A stretch of DNA of 64,000 nt from Armatimonadota bacterium (GTDB lineage: Bacteria; Sysuimicrobiota; Sysuimicrobiia; Sysuimicrobiales; Sysuimicrobiaceae): contig JAVKGX010000002.1 in NCBI GenBank assembly GCA_031432545.1, positions 62,001 to 126,000 of the forward strand, written 5' to 3'. Made by a program: the position numbers and the translations under genes. This document shows positions 37,525 through 49,666 of the stretch, piece by piece. The notes under the pieces were generated by a model, which saw nothing but the letters and a program-made list of their open reading frames with translations, had not been told where the DNA came from and made no database searches. Numbering within the stretch: position 1 is the first letter of the stretch; every line of letters begins with the position of its first letter.

Positions 37525-38178
37525 TCATGCCTCGATCAGACCCTTGCGGATCGCGTACCGTACCAGCTCGGTACGGTCGTGCAGGTTGAGCTTCTCCATG
37601 ATGTGCGCACGGTGGGTCTGCACGGTCTTGATACTTATGTACAGCCGCTTGGCGATCTCCTGATTCGTCAGGCCCTCGGCGATCAGCGTGAGCACCTCGC
37701 GCTCGCGCGGCGTGAGACCGTCCAGCGACGCCGGCTCTTCCTTCGCTGCCGCACGGTCCAGGAAGTCCTGCACGACGAGGCGCGCCACCGACGGGTACAA
37801 GAATGCTTCCCCGCGGTGCGCGGCACGGACGGCGGAGACGAGGTCTTCGGCCGCGGCTCGCTTGAGCACGTAGCCGGCCCCACCCGCGCGCAGCATCCGG
37901 AAGACGTAGCTCGGCTCCTCGTGCATCGTCAAGCCAAGCACCTGCACCGACGGCAGCTCCTGCCGGATCTTCTCCGTCGCCTCGATCCCGGTCATGTCCG
38001 GCATGCTGATGTCCATCACCACGACGTCGGGCCGCAGCTGCCGCGCGAGTTCCAGCGCCTCGCGGCCGGTGGCGGCCTCGCCGACGACCTCGAAGTCCCG
38101 CTGGCCGGACAGGATCATCCGAACCCCCTCCCGCACGATGCTGTGGTCGTCGGCGATGAGAATGCGGATCTTGTTCAT
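37525..38178 (-). CDS. NarL/FixJ-family response regulator
   Basis: The protein has 217 residues. The receiver has IRILIADDHSIVREGVRMIL, the phospho-acceptor Asp in DVVVMDISMPDMTG, Thr in LGLTMHEE and Lys in GYVLKRA. The LuxR HTH is LTPREREVLTLIAEGLTNQE through KTVQTHRAHIMEKLNL. It follows the soluble kinase gene by 64 nt and is the third gene of the PucR-kinase-regulator operon. Target genes are not visible, but the divergent importer operon is the obvious candidate. Confidence 0.93.
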   Translation of the reverse strand: MNKIRILIADDHSIVREGVRMILSGQRDFEVVGEAATGREALELARQLRPDVVVMDISMPDMTGIEATEKIRQELPSVQVLGLTMHEEPSYVFRMLRAGGAGYVLKRAAAEDLVSAVRAAHRGEAFLYPSVARLVVQDFLDRAAAKEEPASLDGLTPREREVLTLIAEGLTNQEIAKRLYISIKTVQTHRAHIMEKLNLHDRTELVRYAIRKGLIEA

Positions 38179-38242
38179 GACCGCCCCCGGCGCCGGGTTG
38201 CGGGCGCCGCGCCGGCGGTGGGGCGTCGTATCGTGCCCACCT

Positions 38243-39460
38243 TCACCCGCCGGACTCGTCGTGCAGCGGAATCCTCGCCAGCACCGTCGTGCCGACGCCG
38301 GGCACCGACAGCACCTGGAGCGTACCGCCTACCAGCTGCGCGCGCTCCCGCATCCCCGCCAGACCCAAGGTCGCCCGGGGTTCCGGGTCTGTGCTGTCGA
38401 ACCCGGTCCCGTCGTCTCGGACCATCACGAGCAGGAACCCGCCGCGGCGGTCCACGCGGATCTCCAGCTGTCGTGCCTGCGCGTGCCGCAACGCGTTCGT
38501 CACGGCCTCCTGCACGATGCGAAATACGACCGTCTCGACCTCCTGCGGAAGGCGCTGCCCAATGTCACCGATGTGGACGTCGGCTCGCAGACCGGCCGCA
38601 TGCACGTAAGTGTCCGCATACCAGCGGAGTGCGGGTCCCAGACCGAGGTCGTCGAGGATCGAAGGCCGCAGTTCGTACACGAGCTTGCGCAACTCGTCCA
38701 GTCCCTGCTGCGCCAGGTCGTGCAATTTCCGCAGCGCCGGCGCCAGCGGCCCGTCCTCGGACTCCGCGCGTCGGGTGAGTTGCGCGAGCTGGATGATCAG
38801 CGCCGTCATCATCTGTCCGGCGTGGTCGTGCAGGTCCCGGGCGATGCGCCGCCGTTCCTCTTCCTGCGCGACGAGCAACCTCTGCAGCAGCTGACGCCGC
38901 GTATGCTCCTGCTCGCGCACCTGGTCGAACAGACGGGCGCGCTGGACGGCGACAGCGATCTCGTGCCCCAACGCCTCCAGCAGGTCGAGTTCCTCCGCGG
39001 CGAACGACCTGCCCGGGGGCAGCAGCAGATTCAGGATCCCGACGGTTTCGTCCTGCGCGATCAGCGGAACCGAGGCGTGGCGGTGCCGCTCGGGCGACTG
39101 GGGCAGGGCCTGCTCCAGCCGCGCGCAGTCAATGAAGTTCACGGGCTCGGCGAGCCGCCCCTCCCGCAGCATCGAGATGCACCGGCAGTCCCCGGCCATC
39201 CGCCGCTTGCCGGAGACCGACAGCGCCGGAGGTAGGTTCACGTCTGCAGCCATACGGAACTCCCCAGGCTCCGGGCCGTGCAGGAAGATCCAGCCGGCGT
39301 CGACGTCCATTAGTTCGACGATGCGGTGCAGGGCTCCATCGAGTGCCTCCCGCAGTGTGTACGATCGGTTGAGCACCTCAGCGATGCCGCGGAAGATCGC
39401 GGTCTGCCGGGCGACGTGGCGCGGGGCATCCGTTGGTTGGGCTTCCATCATGCCTATCAT
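38243..39460 (-). CDS. Soluble GAF-domain sensor histidine kinase (NarX/LiaS class)
   Basis: The protein has 405 residues with no membrane helix. The GAF domain (about 25-180) contains a Cys-x-Cys and a further Cys (GDCRCISML ... FIDCARLEQ) that could bind a metal, Fe-S cluster or haem. HisKA_3 carries the phospho-accepting His in ERRRIARDLHDHAGQ, and HATPase has QEAVTNALRHAQAR and DDGTGFDSTD, LGLAGMRERAQLVGG. It should phosphorylate the NarL-type regulator downstream. ATG 39460 overlaps the PucR stop by 4 nt. Being cytosolic, it senses an intracellular signal. Confidence 0.92.
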   Translation of the reverse strand: MIGMMEAQPTDAPRHVARQTAIFRGIAEVLNRSYTLREALDGALHRIVELMDVDAGWIFLHGPEPGEFRMAADVNLPPALSVSGKRRMAGDCRCISMLREGRLAEPVNFIDCARLEQALPQSPERHRHASVPLIAQDETVGILNLLLPPGRSFAAEELDLLEALGHEIAVAVQRARLFDQVREQEHTRRQLLQRLLVAQEEERRRIARDLHDHAGQMMTALIIQLAQLTRRAESEDGPLAPALRKLHDLAQQGLDELRKLVYELRPSILDDLGLGPALRWYADTYVHAAGLRADVHIGDIGQRLPQEVETVVFRIVQEAVTNALRHAQARQLEIRVDRRGGFLLVMVRDDGTGFDSTDPEPRATLGLAGMRERAQLVGGTLQVLSVPGVGTTVLARIPLHDESGG

Positions 39461-41106
39461 ACGGGCTCGCCGGCTCCGGGTGGCGAGTGTCGGGGACCGT
39501 GTTGCGCTCCCGTCGGTCGGCCGGACAGCTTCTCGATTTCGAGCGCCATCTGGAGGCGGAACCGGGTCTGGGGGTCGTCGAGACCTGCGCCCAGGATCTC
39601 CTCCATCCGCTCGACCCGGTGGCGCAGCGTGTTCCAGTGGACGTCCAGCCGCCGCGCCGCCGACCTCTGGTTGAACCCGCAGGTGATGAGGGCGACCGCA
39701 GTCTCGTACAGCGCCGCGCTGTGGTCGCGCAGGGCTCCCAGCGTGGCGCGGTACAGGCTTTCCATGGCCTCCCGGTCGGAGGCCGAGCCGAGGATCCGCA
39801 CCGTCTCGAAGTCCTCATACCACCAGACCCCGCTGCCGCGCACCGTACCCAGCGCGGCCTCCGCCTGCCGCAGGCTGAGCGGGATCCCGGTGTGACCCTG
39901 CTGGGGCCGTCCCACGACGAGCGCGACCGGCACCTCCGGTGCGGCGTCGCGCAGGTGGAGCCAGATGCCCTGGACCCGGCGGCGGAGTCTATCTTGCGGC
40001 AAGTCGGCGGAAATCAGACACTGCACCTGGTTCAGGGCGAAGGCCAAGAAGGCGGGCAGGCGAAAGGCTTCCAGGGCCGCCTGAAGCGCCTGGCCCAGCC
40101 GTGCGCGGTTCTGGAAGTCGTCGGTGGACGTGAGCGCGCGCGGTCGCACAGTCCCGTCCGCATCGACCGGAGCAGCGATGGCGACGGCGTACGTGCCCTC
40201 GGGGTCGAACCCCAACAGTTGCGCGCGCTCCCGCAACCCCGAGTCCCCAGTCAGCCTGCCCTGCAGGACCGCTTCGACGAAGGTGTTGCGCACGCGGGCC
40301 TCCGCGTCGGCTACGGCCTGCTGGCGCAGCAGGTGCAACCCCGCCACGACTGCGCCGTGTTCTCCCGCGCGCACGTCCAGTTCGTTCATCCCGCCCGGTG
40401 GGCCGACGACAATGAGATACCCGGACACCTCCCGCCCGGTGCGCACCGGAAAGAAGATGCCCTCGATTTGGTCCGTGCGGAAGCTCCCCTCGCGGTGCGC
40501 TGACGACCCAGACGCCGAGATCGCCCCGCGGGCGGCCCGCTCGATCGTCTCCCACTCTGCGGGGGTCGCGGTCAACGCGCGCAGCCGCCGGTCCGTGACG
40601 ACGACGCGCTTGCCGATCAGCTCCCCGAGCCGATCGGCGATGCTCTCCACGGCCTCGGCGTCGAGCGCGGCCGCGGTCAGCGTGCGGTGGATTCGCTCCG
40701 AACGCTCCAGCACCTCGAACTGCCGGCGGATGATCTCCCGGTTGATGGTCTCCACCAACTCGGCGAACGACGTCTCATGGTGCGCCTCGAGCACCGCCAG
40801 CCCGACTTCGCCTGCCGACGCAGCCTGGCGGATGGGGCTGGGAATGCTCGGGAAGAACGGCGGGTCCGCCCGGAACAGAATCGCGGAGGCGCCGGCGCGG
40901 TCCAGGTCTGCCAGGATCCTCCGCTGCTCGGCGGCGTCGGCCGGCCAACTGTATCCGGTCGTCAGCAGCAACTCCCCCCCGTGCGGCCAGGGCAGGACCT
41001 CGGGCCACGTGTGCACCCACCGGATGACCCGATCCAAGCCGTGGCGGGAGATCGGCTGCACGTCCCGCATGACATCCAAGCGCAACACCTCGTGCACCCG
41101 CAACAT
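39457..41106 (-). CDS. PucR-family transcriptional regulator
   Basis: About 549 residues from ATG 41106 (GTG 41109 is also possible). The N-terminal PucR-type sensory domain (about 5-120) has HTWPEVLPWPHGGELLLTTG; a central GAF/GGDEF-like region follows, and the C-terminal PucR HTH is at about 480-530 (AVALITCGFNQRSAARRLDVHWNTLRHRVERME). Family members control purine, amino acid and GABA catabolism and are activated by small ligands. The stop overlaps the start of the kinase gene, giving a PucR-kinase-NarL operon divergent from LIV system 2, with a palindrome in between. Confidence 0.9.
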   Translation of the reverse strand: MLRVHEVLRLDVMRDVQPISRHGLDRVIRWVHTWPEVLPWPHGGELLLTTGYSWPADAAEQRRILADLDRAGASAILFRADPPFFPSIPSPIRQAASAGEVGLAVLEAHHETSFAELVETINREIIRRQFEVLERSERIHRTLTAAALDAEAVESIADRLGELIGKRVVVTDRRLRALTATPAEWETIERAARGAISASGSSAHREGSFRTDQIEGIFFPVRTGREVSGYLIVVGPPGGMNELDVRAGEHGAVVAGLHLLRQQAVADAEARVRNTFVEAVLQGRLTGDSGLRERAQLLGFDPEGTYAVAIAAPVDADGTVRPRALTSTDDFQNRARLGQALQAALEAFRLPAFLAFALNQVQCLISADLPQDRLRRRVQGIWLHLRDAAPEVPVALVVGRPQQGHTGIPLSLRQAEAALGTVRGSGVWWYEDFETVRILGSASDREAMESLYRATLGALRDHSAALYETAVALITCGFNQRSAARRLDVHWNTLRHRVERMEEILGAGLDDPQTRFRLQMALEIEKLSGRPTGAQHGPRHSPPGAGEPV

Positions 41107-41121
41107 CACCTGTAGCCCCGA

Positions 41122-41145
41122 ATCATAGACGGTAAATACTATGAT
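41122..41145. promoter_or_regulatory. Palindrome ATCATAG-N10-CTATGAT in the divergent promoter
   Basis: Perfect 7-bp arms at 41122-41128 and 41139-41145 with a 10-bp spacer, in the only notably AT-rich stretch nearby. Both arms contain TATGAT on one strand, which resembles a -10 hexamer, so a regulator here would cover both divergent promoters. PucR is encoded next to it and is the natural candidate. CTTGT-GACA-ACAAG at 41170-41183 is a second, shorter inverted repeat between this site and the start at 41228. Confidence 0.55.
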
Positions 41146-41227
41146 AAACGCCCAAATCGATTCGGATCATCTTGTGACAACAAGCCCTTGATTTCGCCTC
41201 CGCGCACACCTGTAGCATGAGGCAACG

Positions 41228-42463
41228 ATGTCGTCTCGACACGGCAGGCGTCGACGTGCCGCCGACACGATTACGGTGGGCTGTTTGTATCCGCTGACCG
41301 GCCGGGCGGCGCGCTACGGGCACGACGCGATCGTGGGTGCCGAGATGGCGGCCGACGAGATCAACGAAGCCGGCGGCGTGGACGGCTCCGAGTTGAGGCT
41401 GCTGTTCTCCGACGACCGGTCCGATCCCACGTTCGCCGTCAAGGTGGCCCAGCGCTATGTGACCGAGGACCGCGTCGAGTTCCTGATGGGGGTGGTCAGC
41501 AGCGCCGTCGCTTTGGCGGTGACCGAGGTTTCCCGGCACTTCGGTGTCGTCTTCGTCGGCACCGACCACGCGTCGGGGAGGCTGACCATCGAGCAGTTCC
41601 AGCCGTACTACTTCCGGGTGACGAACAACACGGTGCAGTCCATGCGCGCCGGCGCCATGTACCTGCAGCGCCGCCCGTGGTCCACCTACTTCTACATCGG
41701 GCCGGACTACGAGTACGGGCACAGGCAGTGGCAGGACTTCCGGGACCATCTCGCCCAGCTGCGGCCGGATGTGGCGTTCATCGGGCAGGCCTGGCCGAAG
41801 CTGTACCAGAGCGACTACCGACCGTTCATCCGTGCGATCCTCGAGGCTTCGCCGCAGGTGCTCGTCCACGGCTTTTGGGGCGGAGACACGATCGCCTTCC
41901 TCGAACAGGGGTTGGAACTGGGTCTATTCGACCGCATCCAGGTCGTCAGCTTCGACGCGGGTGGCAACTACGAGGTGTTCGAGGCCCTAGGCGACCGCAT
42001 GCCCACCGGCCTCATCCTGAGCGCCCGCCACCACAACAACTTCCCGCAGACGGATGAAAACCGCACCTTCGTGGAGCGCTTTTGGTCGAGGGCGCGGCGC
42101 TATCCGTCGTACACGGCGCACGGGGCGTACGTCGGCGTGCACTTTATCGCGCAGGCCGTGCAGCGGGCGGGATCGGTGGACAGCGACGACGTCGTCCGCG
42201 CGGCCGAAGGCATGCAGCTTCGTACGCCTCGCGACCGCGAAGGTTTCTGTTCGTGGATCCGGCCGGTCGATCACCAGATCGTGCAGGAGATGTACATCGG
42301 CGTCAGCGAGCCCAACGTTGACTTCGCGCCGGCGCGCGTGATGCTGGGGCGGTGGGAGGTGATCCCCGCCGACCGGCTGTTGCCCGACACCGAAGAGATC
42401 CTGCGGCTGCGGCAGGCGGCCGCACAGCACAGATCGGCCATTCCACACGGGGGTGGGTCATGA
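41228..42463 (+). CDS. LivK-type solute-binding protein without signal peptide (system 2)
   Basis: The protein has 411 residues from ATG 41228, with GAGG 6 nt upstream. The N-terminus MSSRHGRRRRAADTITVGCL enters the first strand of the Peripl_BP_6 fold with no hydrophobic leader and no lipobox, and no upstream frame supplies one. The rest is complete (LTGRAARYGHDAIVGAEMAA, FYIGPDYEYGHRQWQDF, VVSFDAGGNYEVFEALGD). Such a protein would stay in the cytoplasm, as in AmiC of the Pseudomonas amidase system, and could sense rather than transport. It precedes a leader-bearing homologue with ATGA overlap. Confidence 0.85.
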   Translation: MSSRHGRRRRAADTITVGCLYPLTGRAARYGHDAIVGAEMAADEINEAGGVDGSELRLLFSDDRSDPTFAVKVAQRYVTEDRVEFLMGVVSSAVALAVTEVSRHFGVVFVGTDHASGRLTIEQFQPYYFRVTNNTVQSMRAGAMYLQRRPWSTYFYIGPDYEYGHRQWQDFRDHLAQLRPDVAFIGQAWPKLYQSDYRPFIRAILEASPQVLVHGFWGGDTIAFLEQGLELGLFDRIQVVSFDAGGNYEVFEALGDRMPTGLILSARHHNNFPQTDENRTFVERFWSRARRYPSYTAHGAYVGVHFIAQAVQRAGSVDSDDVVRAAEGMQLRTPRDREGFCSWIRPVDHQIVQEMYIGVSEPNVDFAPARVMLGRWEVIPADRLLPDTEEILRLRQAAAQHRSAIPHGGGS

Positions 42464-43800
42464 GGCAAAGGAACGTCCATACGTCCGTTGCCCGGCGGGT
42501 GGCGGGGATCGCCGCGGCGGCCGCGCTGGCGGTGGCGGTGGGGGCGCCCGGCGGGACGGCCGGGGCGGGACCCGCACGGCCGGCGGAGGTCAAGATCGGC
42601 ATCGTTACCTTCCTGTCCGGTCCGGCGGCGGCGCCGTTCGGCATCCCGGCCCGCAACGCGGCCGAGGTGCTCATCGACGAGATCAACGCCGGCCGCGCGC
42701 CGGCCCCGTACAATCAGCGGGGCATCGCTGGGGTTCCGATCCGCGTGGTGTACGTGGACGAAGCCGGGGGAGCGGACCGGCAGGTCGCGGAGTTCCGCCG
42801 CCTGGTGCTGGACGAGCGGGTGGACCTGGTGATCGGGTACATCTCCAGCGCGGACTGCCTGGCGGTCGCACCGGTCGCCGAGGAGCTGCGCGCGCTGCTC
42901 GTGATGTTCGACTGCGGCACGAACCAGATCTTCGAAGAGCGCAGCTATCGGTACGTGTTCCGCACGCACGGCCACCAGATCCTGGACAACGTCGGGGCGG
43001 CGCGGTACATCTTGCGGATCAAACCCGAGATCGCGTCGATCGCGGGGATCAACCAGAACTACGCGTGGGGGCAGGACTCGTGGCGGGACTTCCGGGACTC
43101 GGTGCGCAGACTGAAACCCGACGTACGCGTGATGGGCGAGCACTTCCCGCCTCTGTTCGGCGGTGAGTACTCGGCTCAGATCTCTGCGCTGCTGGGCGCA
43201 CGGCCGGAGGTCGTGCACACCAGCTTTTGGGGTGGCGACCTCGAGAGCTTCCTCATCCAGCAACTGCCCCGGCGGCTGTACGAGCGCAGCACTCTCGTGT
43301 TGACCACCGGGGACACCGTTCTGCCGCGTCTGGGGCGCAACATGATCCCGGGGGTGGTCGTCGGAGCACGCGGGCCGCACGGCGCGCTGGCGCCCAATGT
43401 CCCGCTGAACCGGTGGTTCCGGGAGGTGTATGCGCGGCGGTTCAACGTCCGTCCCGTGTACCCCTCGTACCACATGTCTCAGGCGATCTTCGGAGTCAAG
43501 ACGGCGTACGAGCGGGCGCAGCGGCAGGTGGGAGGATGGCCGACCCGAGAACAGGTCATCGACGCGTTCCGGGGGATCACGTTCGACACTCCCAGCGGTC
43601 CGATCCGCATGGCGCTGGGCCGCGGGCACCAGGCGATCGAGCCGGTGGCCTATGGGATCACGAGCCGTTTCAACACCGCCACGGGGGAGTACGATCTGAC
43701 GCGCGTCGTGGTCTTTCCCGCCGAGTGCGTCAACCCACCGGAGGGGATGACCAGCGCCGACTGGATCGCGCAGGGCTTCCCCGGGGCACGCTGCCCGTAG
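42460..43800 (+). CDS. ABC transporter solute-binding protein with signal peptide (system 2)
   Basis: The protein has 446 residues from ATG 42460. A signal peptide (VARRVAGIAAAAALAVAVGA) occupies about residues 10-35, and the mature sequence starts EVKIGIVTFLSGPAAAPFG. YVDEAGGADRQVAEFRRLV, SSADCLAVAPVAEEL, AWGQDSWRDFRDS and SFWGGDLESFLIQQL are characteristic for this HAAT subgroup. Clearly the exported receptor for the LivHMGF genes that follow. Only distantly similar to the leaderless protein before it. Confidence 0.9.
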   Translation: MRQRNVHTSVARRVAGIAAAAALAVAVGAPGGTAGAGPARPAEVKIGIVTFLSGPAAAPFGIPARNAAEVLIDEINAGRAPAPYNQRGIAGVPIRVVYVDEAGGADRQVAEFRRLVLDERVDLVIGYISSADCLAVAPVAEELRALLVMFDCGTNQIFEERSYRYVFRTHGHQILDNVGAARYILRIKPEIASIAGINQNYAWGQDSWRDFRDSVRRLKPDVRVMGEHFPPLFGGEYSAQISALLGARPEVVHTSFWGGDLESFLIQQLPRRLYERSTLVLTTGDTVLPRLGRNMIPGVVVGARGPHGALAPNVPLNRWFREVYARRFNVRPVYPSYHMSQAIFGVKTAYERAQRQVGGWPTREQVIDAFRGITFDTPSGPIRMALGRGHQAIEPVAYGITSRFNTATGEYDLTRVVVFPAECVNPPEGMTSADWIAQGFPGARCP

Positions 43801-43863: not shown

Positions 43864-44751
43864 GTGACGACCATCGTCGCGGACGGCTTGGTCTTCGCTT
43901 CCTGGCTGTTCCTGGTCTCGGCCGGGCTGACGCTGATCTACGGCGTCCTGCGCATCCTCAACATCGCCCACGGGAGCCTGTACGCGCTGGGTGCGTACGC
44001 CGGGGCTTCGCTGGTCATCGTCTACTCCCAGCGCGAGGCGTGGCCGTACGGCACCTTCTTCCTGCTGCCGCTGGCAGCGGTGGTCGTCGGCGCGGTCACG
44101 GGCCCGGTGATGGAGCGGGGCGTCCTGCGCTGGATGTACGGCCGGGACCAGGTGTTGCAGCTGCTGGTGACCTTCGCGCTGTTCTTGATCCTGGAAGATG
44201 CGGTGAAGCTCATCTGGGGGGTCAGCCCCTACTACGCGTTCCAGCCCTACACGCTGTTGGGCGAAATCCACCTCGCAGACGTCGTCTATCCCGGTTACAG
44301 TATGCTGCTGGTCGGGGTGGCCGCCTGCGCGGCGGTGGGGCTGTGGCTGTTCACAAGCCGCAGCCGCCTGGGCCGCCTGGTCGTCGCCGTCATCCACGAC
44401 CCGGAGATGAGCACCGCGATGGGCGTCAACCTGCCGCGCGTGTACGTGCTGACGTTCTCCCTCGGAGCGTCCCTCGCGGCGCTGGGAGGTGCCTTCACCG
44501 CGCCGATGATCTCGGTCGTGCCGGGGATCGCCGTGGAGGTGATCGTGGTCGCCTTCGCGGTCGTGGTCATCGGCGGGCTGGGCAGCCTGGAGGGGGCGGT
44601 CGCCGGTGCGTTGCTGATCGGCCTGGTGCGGTCGGCGGCGGTCCATCTGTTCCCGGCGCTGGAACTGTTCGCGATCTACCTGGTGATGGCTGCGGTGTTG
44701 CTCGTCCGACCGCACGGGCTGTTCGCCCGCCCCGAGGCGCGGCGCATATGA
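43864..44751 (+). CDS. livH: ABC transporter permease, LivH type (system 2)
   Basis: The protein has 295 residues from GTG 43864. LVSAGLTLIYGVLRILNIAHGSLYALGAYAG is spread over the first membrane segments, GGLGSLEGAVAGALLIGLV is the conserved cytoplasmic loop, and the C-terminus LLVRPHGLFARPE is diagnostic of LivH. About eight membrane helices. Stop overlaps livM (ATGA). A 63-nt gap separates it from the binding-protein gene. Confidence 0.92.
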   Translation: MTTIVADGLVFASWLFLVSAGLTLIYGVLRILNIAHGSLYALGAYAGASLVIVYSQREAWPYGTFFLLPLAAVVVGAVTGPVMERGVLRWMYGRDQVLQLLVTFALFLILEDAVKLIWGVSPYYAFQPYTLLGEIHLADVVYPGYSMLLVGVAACAAVGLWLFTSRSRLGRLVVAVIHDPEMSTAMGVNLPRVYVLTFSLGASLAALGGAFTAPMISVVPGIAVEVIVVAFAVVVIGGLGSLEGAVAGALLIGLVRSAAVHLFPALELFAIYLVMAAVLLVRPHGLFARPEARRI

Positions 44752-45689
44752 ACGGGCTGGGTCGGGCCCTGCCAGCCGTCCTGCTGTTGGTCTTCGCTGT
44801 CCTCGGCTCCGTCCTGCCGGGCTGGCTGGTCTTCGTGTTGACCCTGGCACTCGCAAAGGGGCTGGTGGTGCTGGCGGTCGTCGTGCTCATGCGCGCAGGG
44901 CTGGTTTCGTTCGGCCACGGGCTGTTCTTCGCGGGTGCTGCCTACGCTGCGGGATTTGCCACGCGGGCGTGGGAGGTCAAGGAGGCGCTGCTGCTCATCC
45001 TGCTGGGCGTGGCGGTGGCGGTCGCCCTGGGAGCGGTCTTCGGGCTGCTCGCAGCACGGTACCGCGAGATCTTCTTCGCGATGCTCAGCTTGGCGTTCTC
45101 GATGGTGCTGTACGGAGTGCTCATCAAGGCCTACACGCTCACCGGCGGCAGCGATGGGTTGCGGATTCCCGTTCCGACGATCCTCGGCGTCGTGCCCCAG
45201 CTGGAGCAGGCCCGGCTGGCGATCTACTACGTCGCCCTGGCAGCGGTTGCCGTGGCGGTTGCGCTCATCCGGCGCTACTCCGCCGCTCCGCTTGGCTACC
45301 TCATGCAGGCGGTGCGCGACAACGAGGTTCGCGTGGGCTACTTGGGCGCGTCCGTGAACCGGGCCATCTATCTGACCTACGTGCTGTCGGCCGCGCTCGG
45401 CGGGCTGGGAGGGGTGTTGGTCGCACTCAACGTCGGCCACATCGACCCGAACCTGGCGTACTGGACCACGTCGGGGGAATTCGTCTTCATCGCTCTGCTG
45501 GGCGGCACCGAGGGCGTTCTCGCGCCGCTGGCGGGCGCAATCGTCTACGAGCTGTTCAAGAGCTACGCGTTCAAGTACGCACCGTACGCGTGGCAGATGA
45601 TGATGGGCGGTATCATGCTGGCGATCATCCTGTTCCTGCCGGGCGGGTTGTGGGCGCCGATCGAGCGGGCCCTGCGGAGGACGCGGTGA
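44748..45689 (+). CDS. livM: ABC transporter permease, LivM type (system 2)
   Basis: The protein has 313 residues. Membrane helices contain VVLMRAGLVSFGHGLFFAGA, the LivM signature, and RYREIFFAMLSLAFSMVLYG followed by TGGSDGLRIP. The gene is coupled to livH by an ATGA overlap and to livG by GTGA. It forms the second half of the importer pore in the inner membrane. Confidence 0.92.
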   Translation: MNGLGRALPAVLLLVFAVLGSVLPGWLVFVLTLALAKGLVVLAVVVLMRAGLVSFGHGLFFAGAAYAAGFATRAWEVKEALLLILLGVAVAVALGAVFGLLAARYREIFFAMLSLAFSMVLYGVLIKAYTLTGGSDGLRIPVPTILGVVPQLEQARLAIYYVALAAVAVAVALIRRYSAAPLGYLMQAVRDNEVRVGYLGASVNRAIYLTYVLSAALGGLGGVLVALNVGHIDPNLAYWTTSGEFVFIALLGGTEGVLAPLAGAIVYELFKSYAFKYAPYAWQMMMGGIMLAIILFLPGGLWAPIERALRRTR

Positions 45690-46429
45690 CGCCGGTCTTG
45701 GAGGTCACCGACCTCACGATGCGCTTCGGCAGCATCGCCGCGGCCGAGAGCGAGAACGTGACGGTCCACAGCGGGGAATTCGTCGGTATCGTGGGGCCCA
45801 ACGGCGCGGGCAAGACGACGTTTCTGAACCTCGTCACTGGCTACCTGCGGCCCCAGGCGGGGCGGGTGAAGTTTTGCGGGCGGGACATCCTCGGGTTGCG
45901 GCCGGAGGAGATCACGGCCCTGGGAATCGGAAGGTCTTTTCAGATCCCCCAGCTGTTCCTGACGCTGACCGTCCTCGAGAACCTGTTGGTCGCCCTGGCC
46001 TGCGCCGAACGGCGCAGCCTCGACTTCTGGCGGCCGTTGTGGCAGACAGACCGAATCCGTGCGGCACAGCAGGTGCTGGGACAGTTCGGCTTGGAGGCCG
46101 ACGCGGACCGGCCCGCGAGCGAGCTTCCGGAAGGTGGCCGCAAGCTGCTGGACATCGCGCTGGCGTTCGCGTTGCGGCCGACGCTGCTGCTGATGGACGA
46201 GCCCACCAGCGGGGTCAGCGCGCAGGAGAAGTTCGCCGTGATGGACAGGCTCGTCGCGGTGCTGCGGGAAGGTTCGGTGACCGCGATCTTCGTCGAGCAC
46301 GACATGGAGGTCGTCCGCCGCTACGCGGACCGGGTGCTCGTGCTCGACAACGGCCGCATCGTAGCCGAGGGACCACCGGCGCTGGTGCTCGGCGGGGAGG
46401 CCGCCCAGCAGGCAGCGAGGCCAGGCTGA
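45686..46429 (+). CDS. livG: ABC transporter ATP-binding protein, LivG type (system 2)
   Basis: The protein has 247 residues from GTG 45686. Walker A GPNGAGKTTFLNLV, Q-loop and LGIGRSFQIPQLFLTLTVLE, a poorly conserved signature (LPEGGRKLLDIALAFAL), Walker B LLLMDEPTSGVS and H-loop VEHDMEVVRRYADR. The signature is LPEGGRKL instead of LSGGQQ-like sequence, as in several LivG proteins. It lies between livM and livF and is translated with livM. Confidence 0.92.
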   Translation: MTPVLEVTDLTMRFGSIAAAESENVTVHSGEFVGIVGPNGAGKTTFLNLVTGYLRPQAGRVKFCGRDILGLRPEEITALGIGRSFQIPQLFLTLTVLENLLVALACAERRSLDFWRPLWQTDRIRAAQQVLGQFGLEADADRPASELPEGGRKLLDIALAFALRPTLLLMDEPTSGVSAQEKFAVMDRLVAVLREGSVTAIFVEHDMEVVRRYADRVLVLDNGRIVAEGPPALVLGGEAAQQAARPG

Positions 46430-46431
46430 CG

Positions 46432-47100
46432 ATGTTGTACGTACAGGACCTGCGGGTGAACATCCGACGGTTGGCGATCCTGCGCGGCGTGACCCTCGAG
46501 GTGCCTGCGGGGACGATCGTGGCGTTGGTGGGCCGCAACGGCGCCGGGAAAACCACGACCCTGCGCGCCGTCATGGGCTTGGTGCCCGCATCCGGCGGCT
46601 CGATCACCCTCGACGGAAGCGACCTGCTGCGGGTGCCGGCGCACGGTCGGGCGGCGCTGGGCATCGGGTACATGCCGGAGGACCGCCGGCTCATCCCCCA
46701 ACTGACCGTGGAGGAGAACCTCCTCCTGCCGGCCTGGGCGAACCGCATGTCGGACGCCACCGGGCGTCTGCGGGACCTGTACGAACGCATGCCGGCGCTG
46801 GCGGCGTTCGCCTCCCGCCGGGCCGGACACCTCAGCGGAGGCCAGCAGAAACTCGTCGCGGCCGCGCGCGCCATGATGACCGCCGACCGTGTTCTGCTGC
46901 TGGACGAGCCGTTCGAAGGACTGGCACCGGCGCTCGTGGGCGCGTTAGGCTCGGTGCTGCGGGGGCTGGCGCAGGAGGGTCGTGCCGTGCTGGTGGCAGA
47001 GTCCGAACACACCCACGTCGCAGCACTCGCCCACCGGGCACACACGATCGAGCGCGGAGAGACCGTGGGGTGCAGGAGATGGAAGAACACCGGCTGCTGA
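46432..47100 (+). CDS. livF: ABC transporter ATP-binding protein, LivF type (system 2)
   Basis: The protein has 222 residues. Walker A GRNGAGKTTTLRAVMG, YMPEDRRLIPQLTVEENLLLP, signature LSGGQQKLVAAARAM and Walker B VLLLDEPFEGLAP. The usual VEQN segment after Walker B is AESEHTH, which is unusual. The C-terminus is short and ends GCRRWKNTGC, overlapping the start of the aldehyde dehydrogenase gene by about 30 nt; so the tail may be non-functional. The importer and dehydrogenase appear to be one operon. Confidence 0.9.
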   Translation: MLYVQDLRVNIRRLAILRGVTLEVPAGTIVALVGRNGAGKTTTLRAVMGLVPASGGSITLDGSDLLRVPAHGRAALGIGYMPEDRRLIPQLTVEENLLLPAWANRMSDATGRLRDLYERMPALAAFASRRAGHLSGGQQKLVAAARAMMTADRVLLLDEPFEGLAPALVGALGSVLRGLAQEGRAVLVAESEHTHVAALAHRAHTIERGETVGCRRWKNTGC

Positions 47101-48506
47101 TCGGCGGGCGGTGGGTGTCTGGGGGCTCACTGTCGGAAGTCCGAAACAAATATACCGGCGAGGTGATCGGCGTACTTCCCGTCGCCACCCGCGCCGACGT
47201 GGAAGAGGCGGTGGCCGCCGCGCAACGGGCGGCGCCGGCCATGGCCGACTTGCCGGTACACCGCCGTGCCGAAATCTTGGCGAGGGCCGCCGCCTTGATC
47301 CGCGAGCGCAGGAAGGAGTTCGCGCGCACGATCGCGGCCGAAGCCGGCAAGGCTCTCAAGTACGCGCGGATCGAGGTGGATCGCGGGATCACGACGTTTG
47401 CCATCGCCGCAGAAGAGGCCCGCAGGCTGCACGGCGAGACGGTCCCCCTGGACGCCGTGCCCGCTGGAGAAGGTTACTTCGGGTTCTGGGTGCGCCGGCC
47501 CGTGGGGGTGGTGGCGGCCATCACGCCGTTCAACTTCCCCCTCAACCTGGTGGCGCACAAGGTGGCCCCCGCGCTGGCGTCAGGGAACACGGTGGTGCTG
47601 AAGCCGGCCAACACGACACCGCTGACGGCCGTCAAGCTGTGCCAGGTGCTCGAAGAGGCGGGTCTGCCGGCGGGTGCGATCAACCTCGTCAACGGGCCGG
47701 GCAGTACGGTGGGCGAGTGGCTGGTCACCGATCCCCGCGTGGCAAAGGTGTCGTTCACCGGCAGCCCACCTGTCGGCGAGCGGATCCTCTCGATCGCGGG
47801 CATCAAGAAGGTGACGCTGGAGCTCGGGAACACCTCTCCCGTGATCGTCGCACCGGACGCCGACCTGGACTACGTCGCCCGCAGGTGCGCGGTCGGAGCG
47901 TACTACAACTCCGGCCAGGTGTGCATTTCGGTGCAGCGCATCTATAGCGAGCGGGCGGCCTACGAACCCTTCGTGGAGCGGTTCGTGCGTGCCAGCGAGG
48001 AGATGGTGGTGGGCGACCCGCTGGACGAGCGAGTCGACGTGGGGCCAATGATCGACGTCCGCGAGGCCCAGCGGATCGAGTCCTGGGTCGCCGAGGCGCT
48101 GGCGGGTGGGGCGCGTGCCCTCACGGGAGCACGCCGGGAGGGTGCGGTATACGTGCCGACGGTGCTGACCGACGTCCGGCCCGACATGAAGGTCGTCGCT
48201 CAGGAGGCGTTTGCGCCCGTGGCGTCGGTGATCGCCTGCGACGACTTCGATGAAGCGCTGCGGCAGGCCGACGCGACCGAGTACGGCTTGCAGGCGGCGG
48301 TGTTCACGCGGGACCTGGATCGGGTGTTCCGGGCGATCCGGCGGCTGAACTTCGGCGGGGTGATCGTCAACGACACCCCGGCGTTCCGCGCCGACCACAT
48401 GCCCTATGGCGGGATCCGGCGCAGCGGCCTGGGCCGTGAGGGCGTGCGGTTCGCGATGGAGGAGATGACGAACATCCAGATGGTCGCGATCCGCTTGGCA
48501 CCGTAG
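47070..48506 (+). CDS. NAD(P)-dependent aldehyde dehydrogenase
   Basis: The protein has 478 residues from GTG 47070, or 475 from ATG 47079. The class is clear: ITPFNFPLNLVAHKVAPALA, KPANTTPLTAVKL, FTGSPPVGERI, the general base Glu in VTLELGNTSP and the catalytic Cys in NSGQVCISVQR, with GGIRRSGLGREGVRFAMEEMT at the end. It oxidises an aldehyde such as succinate semialdehyde, lactaldehyde or a branched aldehyde to the acid. Being tied to LIV system 2 and a Zn alcohol dehydrogenase, it points to oxidation of an imported alcohol, aldehyde or amine-derived compound. Confidence 0.92.
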   Translation: MQEMEEHRLLIGGRWVSGGSLSEVRNKYTGEVIGVLPVATRADVEEAVAAAQRAAPAMADLPVHRRAEILARAAALIRERRKEFARTIAAEAGKALKYARIEVDRGITTFAIAAEEARRLHGETVPLDAVPAGEGYFGFWVRRPVGVVAAITPFNFPLNLVAHKVAPALASGNTVVLKPANTTPLTAVKLCQVLEEAGLPAGAINLVNGPGSTVGEWLVTDPRVAKVSFTGSPPVGERILSIAGIKKVTLELGNTSPVIVAPDADLDYVARRCAVGAYYNSGQVCISVQRIYSERAAYEPFVERFVRASEEMVVGDPLDERVDVGPMIDVREAQRIESWVAEALAGGARALTGARREGAVYVPTVLTDVRPDMKVVAQEAFAPVASVIACDDFDEALRQADATEYGLQAAVFTRDLDRVFRAIRRLNFGGVIVNDTPAFRADHMPYGGIRRSGLGREGVRFAMEEMTNIQMVAIRLAP

Positions 48507-48538
48507 CGGTCGCGGATCGTCGACGCGCACAGCGGGCG

Positions 48539-49666
48539 ATGCAGACGCGGGCTGCGGTTCTGTACGAGATGGGCCGTCCCAGGCCCTACACGGAGACGCA
48601 ACCGCTGCGCATCGAAGAAGTGGAGCTCGCAGGCCCTGGCCCGGGCCAGGTGCTGGTCGAAGTCGCCTGCGCCGGGCTGTGCCACTCCGATCTGTCGGTC
48701 ATCGACGGATCGCGGCCGCGCCCGATGCCGATGGTATTGGGGCACGAGGCGGCCGGCGTAGTCCGAGAGGTCGGGACGGGCGTCCACGACCTCAGCCCCG
48801 GCGACCACGTCGTGCTCTCGTTCGTCCCCACCTGCGGCCGCTGCCGCTACTGCGCTGGGGGTCGGCCGGCGCTGTGTGAAGTCGGCAACCGGGCCAACGC
48901 CGCCGGCGTCCTGCTGGACGGCACCTGCCGGTTCCGCGACCGGGCCGAGCGCGCCCTGCACCACCACCTGGGGGTGTCGGCGTTCTCCCGTTTCACGGTG
49001 GCGGCTCAGGAGTCGCTCGTCCGCATCGACGCTGACGTCCCGTTGGACCGGGCCGCGCTGTTCGGCTGCGCGGTCGTGACCGGCGTGGGCGCAGTCGTCA
49101 ACACGGCTCGTGTTCAACCCGGTACGGCGGTTGCGGTCTTCGGATTGGGCGGCGTGGGTCTGAGCGCGGTGATGGGCGCCCGCGTGGCGGGAGCGTATCC
49201 GATCGTGGCGGTCGACGTTGTGCGCGGCAAGTTGGATCTGGCGCGGCGAGTGGGTGCCACACACGTCGTCGAAGCCCGCGAGGACCCCGTCACCGCGGTC
49301 CGGGACCTGACCGGGGGTGGGGCAGACTATGCCTTCGAGAGCGTGGGGAGCGAGCAGGTACTCAGGCAGGCCTACGAGGCCACCCGCCGCGGGGGCACGA
49401 CGGTGGCGATCGGCCTGCCGGACCCCAGCAGGCCGTTCGTCGTCCCCGCGGTCAGCCTCGTGGCCGAGGAGCGGACGGTAAGGGGATCGTACATGGGCTC
49501 GGCCGTTCCGCGCCGCGACATCCCCCGATTCCTCGCCCTCTACCAGGCGGGCCTGCTGCCGGTTGACCTCCTGCTCACCCGCACGATTCCGCTGGACGCC
49601 ATCAACGACGCGTTCGAGGCACTCGCCCGAGGCGACGCGGTCCGCCAGATCGTCGCCACCTTCTGA
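48539..49666 (+). CDS. Zinc-dependent alcohol dehydrogenase (MDR, class III-like)
   Basis: The protein has 375 residues. Catalytic Zn ligands are CAGLCHSD and GHEAAGVV; the structural Zn lobe is CGRCRYCAGGRPALC, and the nucleotide site is FGLGGVGLSAVMGA with VAVDVV after strand 2, which suggests NAD. FGCAVVTGVGAVVNTARV is typical of the NDMA/formaldehyde-like subgroup. It probably supplies an aldehyde to the neighbouring dehydrogenase or acts on a hydroxyl compound from system 2 or 3. No ribosome-binding site is evident, so the start is provisional. Confidence 0.9.
   Translation: MQTRAAVLYEMGRPRPYTETQPLRIEEVELAGPGPGQVLVEVACAGLCHSDLSVIDGSRPRPMPMVLGHEAAGVVREVGTGVHDLSPGDHVVLSFVPTCGRCRYCAGGRPALCEVGNRANAAGVLLDGTCRFRDRAERALHHHLGVSAFSRFTVAAQESLVRIDADVPLDRAALFGCAVVTGVGAVVNTARVQPGTAVAVFGLGGVGLSAVMGARVAGAYPIVAVDVVRGKLDLARRVGATHVVEAREDPVTAVRDLTGGGADYAFESVGSEQVLRQAYEATRRGGTTVAIGLPDPSRPFVVPAVSLVAEERTVRGSYMGSAVPRRDIPRFLALYQAGLLPVDLLLTRTIPLDAINDAFEALARGDAVRQIVATF

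Follow-up and report, generated by a model that had tools for sequence, protein, structure and literature searches.

A 24-bp palindrome between pucR and a divergent transporter operon is probably a chance dyad that includes the predicted pucR -10 box

The gap between a PucR-type regulator gene (pucR) and a divergent transporter operon contains the palindrome ATCATAGACGGTAAATACTATGAT, and in our assessment this is probably a chance dyad, with control of the gap exerted at another site. Its inner arm would be the -10 box of the pucR promoter (TATCAT, minus strand, 41146-41141), whereas its outer arm would be an incidental, unconserved AT-rich stretch in the short pucR leader. PucR would act elsewhere in the gap, possibly at a candidate site between the two promoters (41161-41181), on both divergent units, and would activate the transporter/dehydrogenase operon from that operon's own promoter (41188-41218). 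The use of the predicted hexamers, PucR as the binder and the choice of its site are what we infer. The eye-catching palindrome would thus be mostly a promoter box and coincidence, and the conserved elements of the gap become the focus. The features of the window, which is the whole stretch of 64,000 nucleotides analyzed, are listed in Table 1.

Table 1. Features in and around the pucR/SBP1 gap, with positions in the window
Feature	Positions	Strand	Basis or remark
GAF histidine kinase and NarL-type regulator	37525-39460		directly behind pucR
pucR, PucR-type transcription factor, 550 aa	39457-41109	minus	Pfam PF07905, PF13556, PF17853
Reported dyad ATCATAG-N10-CTATGAT	41122-41145	none	perfect 7-bp arms, 10-bp spacer
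Outer arm, second -10-like hexamer TATGAT	41122-41127	minus	12 nt from pucR start
Predicted pucR -10 box TATCAT	41141-41146	minus	overlaps inner arm; 31 nt to pucR start
Counterpart of the candidate dyad seen in the relatives	41136-41156	none	degenerate; overlaps inner arm and pucR -10
Candidate operator: imperfect dyad with an odd centre (GTTGTCACAAGATGATCCGAA on the minus strand)	41161-41181	none	footprinting
Predicted operon promoter TTGATT-N19-TAGCAT	41188-41218	plus	-35 at 41188-41193, -10 at 41213-41218
SBP1, Peripla_BP_6 protein without signal peptide	41228-42463	plus	Pfam; N-terminus hydropathy
SBP2, Peripla_BP_6 protein, hydrophobic signal-like N-terminus	42352-43800	plus	Pfam; hydropathy
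Rest of presumed operon: LivH-, LivM-, LivG-, LivF-like and two dehydrogenases	43864-49666	plus	
Aldehyde dehydrogenase	47070-48506	plus	in presumed operon
Zinc alcohol dehydrogenase	48539-49666	plus	in presumed operon

The dyad was found exactly at the coordinates reported for it by a sequence-only reading of the window, with perfect arms, and -10-like TATGAT is present on both strands, as that reading had described. The gap measures 118 bp, from the pucR start at 41109 (minus strand) to the SBP1 ATG at 41228, and has a GC content of 49%. Its description as a rare AT-rich patch is borne out, as the gap is contained in 41060-41246, the only span of the window with any 118-bp stretch at or below 50% GC. 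With up to two mismatches, the dyad was the sole match in the window (0.01 expected for the exact sequence) and also in the 2.19-Mb genome. Like an operator for PucR, it is an inverted repeat in the gap between a regulator and its presumed target. As a kind of feature, however, it is not clearly above chance. When the gap was shuffled 5,000 times with its dinucleotides preserved, perfect dyads with 7-bp arms turned up in 8.6% of shuffles at spacers of 0 to 20 and in 11.2% at spacers of 0 to 30. The window as a whole contained 208 such dyads (spacer 0 to 20) versus 227, 209, 228, 216, and 218 in five shuffles. Dyads with at least five A/T per 7-base arm numbered 3 in the window versus 0, 0, 2, 1, and 0 in five shuffles. 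Given these shuffle rates and the lack of a window-wide excess, the dyad is unusual only when its exact spacing is specified beforehand; perfect 7-bp arms with a spacer of exactly 10 were obtained in 0.54% of 5,000 gap shuffles, which counts against coincidence. The folded 24-mer was better than 199 of 200 shuffles (z = -4.2), a value that restates the perfect arms. The dyad might work as an RNA or DNA hairpin, either as structure in the pucR leader or as a cruciform, and its arms could pair into a 7-bp stem closing a 10-nt loop. The energy is only -3.1 to -3.7 kcal/mol (DNA parameters), however; with transcription starting about 7 nt past TATCAT, the inner arm would fall outside the pucR leader, and it would lie upstream of the operon promoter on the other strand. 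We consider a hairpin function extremely improbable.

pucR was searched in 61 genomes, of which 15 had any match. Besides the source genome, close orthologues (52 to 56% identity) were found in G002, G004, G005, and G020, and the same four and the source genome were those with SBP1 orthologues (74 to 78%, E of 1e-120 or better) among the 43 genomes of the order. A scan of genome contigs yielded 27 loci, four of them orthologous (69 to 78%), namely, L022 (G004), L023 (G005), L024 (FW021), and L025 (REEB). pucR and SBP1 are divergent in all six distinct relatives (G002, G004, G005, G020, FW021, and REEB). The four genomes belong to other genera, and the 61-genome set has no further member of the genus of the source genome (g1); G001 to G006 are of the same family as the source genome.

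The regulator has PucR, GGDEF-like, and HTH_30 domains, and its matches to PF07905 (E 7.5e-20) and PF13556 (E 6.1e-18) lie over the curated cut-offs, which places it among the PucR-type factors. Its start was picked by likeness to five of the six relatives, with the start strings compared by eye. Within the presumed operon, LivM, LivG, and LivF were named from their position and their likeness to the relatives' loci. The order SBP2-LivH-LivM-LivG-LivF was kept in all four relatives examined downstream (G002, G004, G005, and G020), followed by the aldehyde dehydrogenase in three (G002, G004, and G005); the alcohol dehydrogenase was present in two (G002 and G020). The G004 contig stops about 390 bases past the aldehyde dehydrogenase, almost 4 kb of further G005 sequence gave no match to the alcohol dehydrogenase (E 1e-10), and G020 gave none to the aldehyde dehydrogenase (E 1e-10). 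We infer that the transporter substrate is likely to be a compound that is broken down via an alcohol or aldehyde. Since the kinase and NarL-type genes directly follow pucR in the window, the response regulator (37525-38178) might bind the palindrome and set both promoters. However, a search of eight loci of the six relatives, reaching 0.6 to 2.3 kb beyond pucR, gave no match to the kinase/NarL pair at E 1e-3, and there is no such dyad in these loci; this alternative appears highly improbable.

The dyad itself was absent from all six orthologous gaps. Phylogenetic footprinting, which had been suggested as a check on the arms, revealed the pair to be unconserved, with mismatches at 4 to 6 of the 14 arm positions in the best match of each gap (6 in G004, 5 in G005, 6 in FW021, 4 in REEB, 4 in G020, and 6 in G002). 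Shuffled sequences matched equally well in 19 to 65% of cases for G004, G005, FW021, and G002. The matches in REEB and G020, located elsewhere in the gap, were somewhat above chance (shuffled fractions of 0.044 and 0.019), which speaks against coincidence. When up to two mismatches were allowed, 30 of the 43 genomes of the order had a match (none mismatched in the source genome, one in G012, and two in the rest), with none in G001 to G006 or G020 and hence none in the four genomes of this set with an orthologous gap. The palindrome was thus rejected as a conserved operator, as none of the six relatives carries the paired arms.

The two arms differed in what the relatives retained. TATCAT was present 31 nt before the pucR start codon in the source genome, G004, and G005 (three of seven genomes), and other -10-like hexamers were observed in G002 (TACAAT at 35 nt), REEB (TATATT at 38 nt), and FW021 (TACAAT at 49 nt); G020 had no such hexamer within one mismatch. 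For the outer arm, a TATAAT-like hexamer at a comparable distance was found in none of the six relatives. The inner arm is most likely the predicted pucR -10 box, and it would have been kept because RNA polymerase needs this box. The placement of the palindrome between the PucR-type gene and the divergent operon stands, and it does include a probable -10 box, that of pucR.

Alternatively, the palindrome might serve as a PucR operator specific to this lineage, at which a dimer would cover the pucR -10 box and leader, repress its own gene, and reach the operon from about -92. The arms are perfect and lie over the pucR -10 box, the length resembles that of the 24-bp AdeR site, and pucR is divergent from its target as in gabR-gabTDP (both precedents from an excerpt of PMC7652997). 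A recent origin would also be compatible with a sample of 61 genomes that holds no second representative of the genus. Furthermore, G004, FW021, and G020 (but not G005, REEB, or G002) have perfect dyads of different sequence (arms of at least 6) in a similar position, no more than 50 nt upstream of pucR; such a pattern in three of six relatives is what an operator drifting in sequence would give and argues against coincidence. On the other hand, the arms are missing in all six relatives despite an orthologous PucR and gap, chance alone produces comparable dyads at the rate given above, and a different motif is common to the relatives. We consider a lineage-specific operator unlikely.

The operon appears to have a promoter of its own. 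The predicted -35 box begins 42 bp beyond the end of the palindrome, and the promoter was position-anchored in all seven gaps, with TTGA (TTGT in FW021) and a spacer of 17 to 19 bp. The corresponding -10 boxes are TAGCAT in the window, TATCAT in G004 and G005, TTCAAT in FW021 and REEB, TAGGAT in G020, and TAATGT in G002. The -35 box was picked by eye from the alignment of the seven gaps; a mechanical promoter search placed the operon pair among the best three in six of seven gaps (FW021 excepted). In the window, this promoter tied at four mismatches with ATGATA/GATCAT, in which the inner arm would serve as a plus-strand -35 box, a result that counts against chance origin. The tying pair was not repeated there in G004 or G020 and had no constant partner in the other relatives. 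On these predictions, the dyad does not contain the -10 boxes of both units, the conserved operon promoter being separate, and simultaneous control of both directions from it finds no support. A dyad of chance origin is favored because it is absent in six of six relatives, TATCAT recurs at 31 nt in three of seven genomes, shuffling yields similar dyads at a rate of 8.6%, and the operon promoter is separate. The operon -10 box lies 9 nt from the ATG (6 to 12 nt in the relatives, by eye); judging from this distance, the operon mRNA is probably nearly or fully leaderless. We also noted by eye that CACCTGTAGC occurs twice in plus orientation, at 41107-41116 and 41207-41216, near opposite ends of the gap.

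Related systems provide a frame for these data. As reported in the excerpt of PMC7652997 considered here, the PucR-type activator GabR binds two 21-bp inverted repeats at -87 to -23 of its target; the sites were found with MEME on three species and shown by gel shift. The same excerpt cites a 24-bp inverted repeat for AdeR and a 17-bp one for PutR of Bacillus subtilis, palindromic sites likened to the one studied here by length only, and a non-palindromic site for B. subtilis PucR. The present locus resembles gabR-gabTDP of Corynebacterium glutamicum in that a PucR-type regulator is divergent from a transport/dehydrogenase operon, whereas PucR has a GGDEF-like domain that GabR, as described there, lacks. 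In contrast to the gel-shifted GabR sites (PMC7652997), the palindrome is known from sequence alone and is unconserved. These precedents make palindromic control of such a gap unsurprising, but what is conserved in this gap is not the reported palindrome. The GabR sites, at -87 to -23 in the same layout, were counted in favor of control elsewhere in the gap.

A motif search of the seven gaps was carried out at six settings, with no position information and against a null that ignores the kinship of the gaps. The strongest result was obtained for a palindrome of width 21, with a score of 81.0 versus a null of 59.7 (sd 2.5, maximum 65.4, 30 shuffles). For non-palindromic motifs, scores were 75.9 at width 14 (null maximum 71.5) and 89.4 at width 18 (null maximum 79.4). 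Even-width palindromic motifs were discarded for their weak or absent signal; at widths 16, 20, and 24, scores were 56.8, 67.9, and 70.0 versus null maxima of 60.6, 70.5, and 69.7, the first two lying under and the third barely over the maximum, and z values also ranged from -0.6 to 1.9. In the six relatives, the distance from the centre of the width-21 site to the operon -35 box downstream is 42, 41, 40, 40, 42, and 39 bp, and each site was the best of its gap when excluded from the matrix; those of G004 and G005 include the pucR -10 box. The site chosen in the source genome, 41161-41181, is 17 bp from the operon -35 box. The place homologous to the relatives' sites is centred 42 bp from this box (39 to 42 in the relatives) and ranked 26th of 63,980 window positions with the matrix.

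The matrix of the six relatives, whose sites had been chosen jointly with the window, ranked 41161-41181 first of 63,980 window positions (10.8; next 7.0). Among 2,000 permuted matrices, 62 had their best window match in the gap, and 13 reached 10.8 there. A loose consensus, written with 41161-41181 in view, matched the genome at up to two mismatches solely at this site. Without G005, z was 2.9 at width 21, 5.3 at 23, 4.7 at 25, and 4.1 at 17; width 17 picked other places, and widths 21 to 25 misplaced REEB and, at 23, also FW021. When the window was omitted as well, z was 2.4, 3.7, 3.7, and 2.8 at widths 19, 21, 23, and 25. One of four window-free matrices ranked the candidate first, namely, that of width 19 (41162-41180, 13.3; 0 of 2,000 controls), whereas the highest-scoring site in the gap was placed 30th at width 21 and 23rd at width 23, and a fixed-offset set placed 41170-41190 second. 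The stretch 41161-41181 is thus a candidate operator whose support varies with width and register. When the upstream regions of six more distantly related pucR genes (37 to 41% identity) were scanned, the best score was 2.7 bits, with no convincing site. TTGTGACAACAAG at 41172-41184, considered alone with two mismatches, was dismissed as not rare, having been matched in 22 of 100 shuffles. In the G020 gap (L003), we observed the perfect dyad CTTGTGACAGGATCACAAG 18 to 36 nt before pucR, in which the shared motif is seen most clearly; we take it to be somewhat CRP-like.

SBP1 may be a sensor. AmiC has no export signal, and SBP1 is likewise a member of a binding-protein family that, from its sequence, lacks one, as would an AmiC- or NasS-like sensor. 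A hydrophobic N-terminus was absent in all seven genomes; within the in-frame stretch upstream, 12-residue hydropathy peaked at 1.5 in G004, largely ahead of the likely start codon, and at 0.6 or below in the others. SBP2 had a hydrophobic N-terminus in six of six (2.4 to 3.0), the REEB contig stopping short of SBP2, as did 11 of 11 more distant binding proteins examined (10 of the 23 remaining loci plus L008). The missing SBP1 signal in seven of seven genomes, set against its presence in 11 of 11 distant relatives, suggests a cytosolic ligand sensor. Among solved structures, the top sequence match of SBP1 (E 1.2e-39) was 3i45, which bears the name of a Tat-pathway signal protein; the match to AmiC was far lower (E 2.8e-5).

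According to the excerpt of PMC3795266 consulted, NasS, which is related to binding proteins but has no signal, controls NasT, and the pair has been likened to AmiC-AmiR. The arrangement here is similar in that SBP1, a binding-protein relative, is encoded beside a regulator, PucR; however, AmiR and NasT are antitermination proteins (PMC3795266), whereas PucR is a DNA-binding factor. By this analogy, SBP1 might bind the imported compound in the cytosol and control PucR, a proposal that we regard as tentative and rather doubtful; only the order of the genes prompts the guess that SBP1 and PucR are partners. A word search of one literature library retrieved no report on the PucR family with a divergent solute-binding protein, and one for a signal-less binding protein beside a regulator retrieved only a paper on another transporter. 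If the proposal holds, a binding protein of a transporter would, through loss of its signal peptide, have become a cytosolic sensor that serves a different class of regulator.
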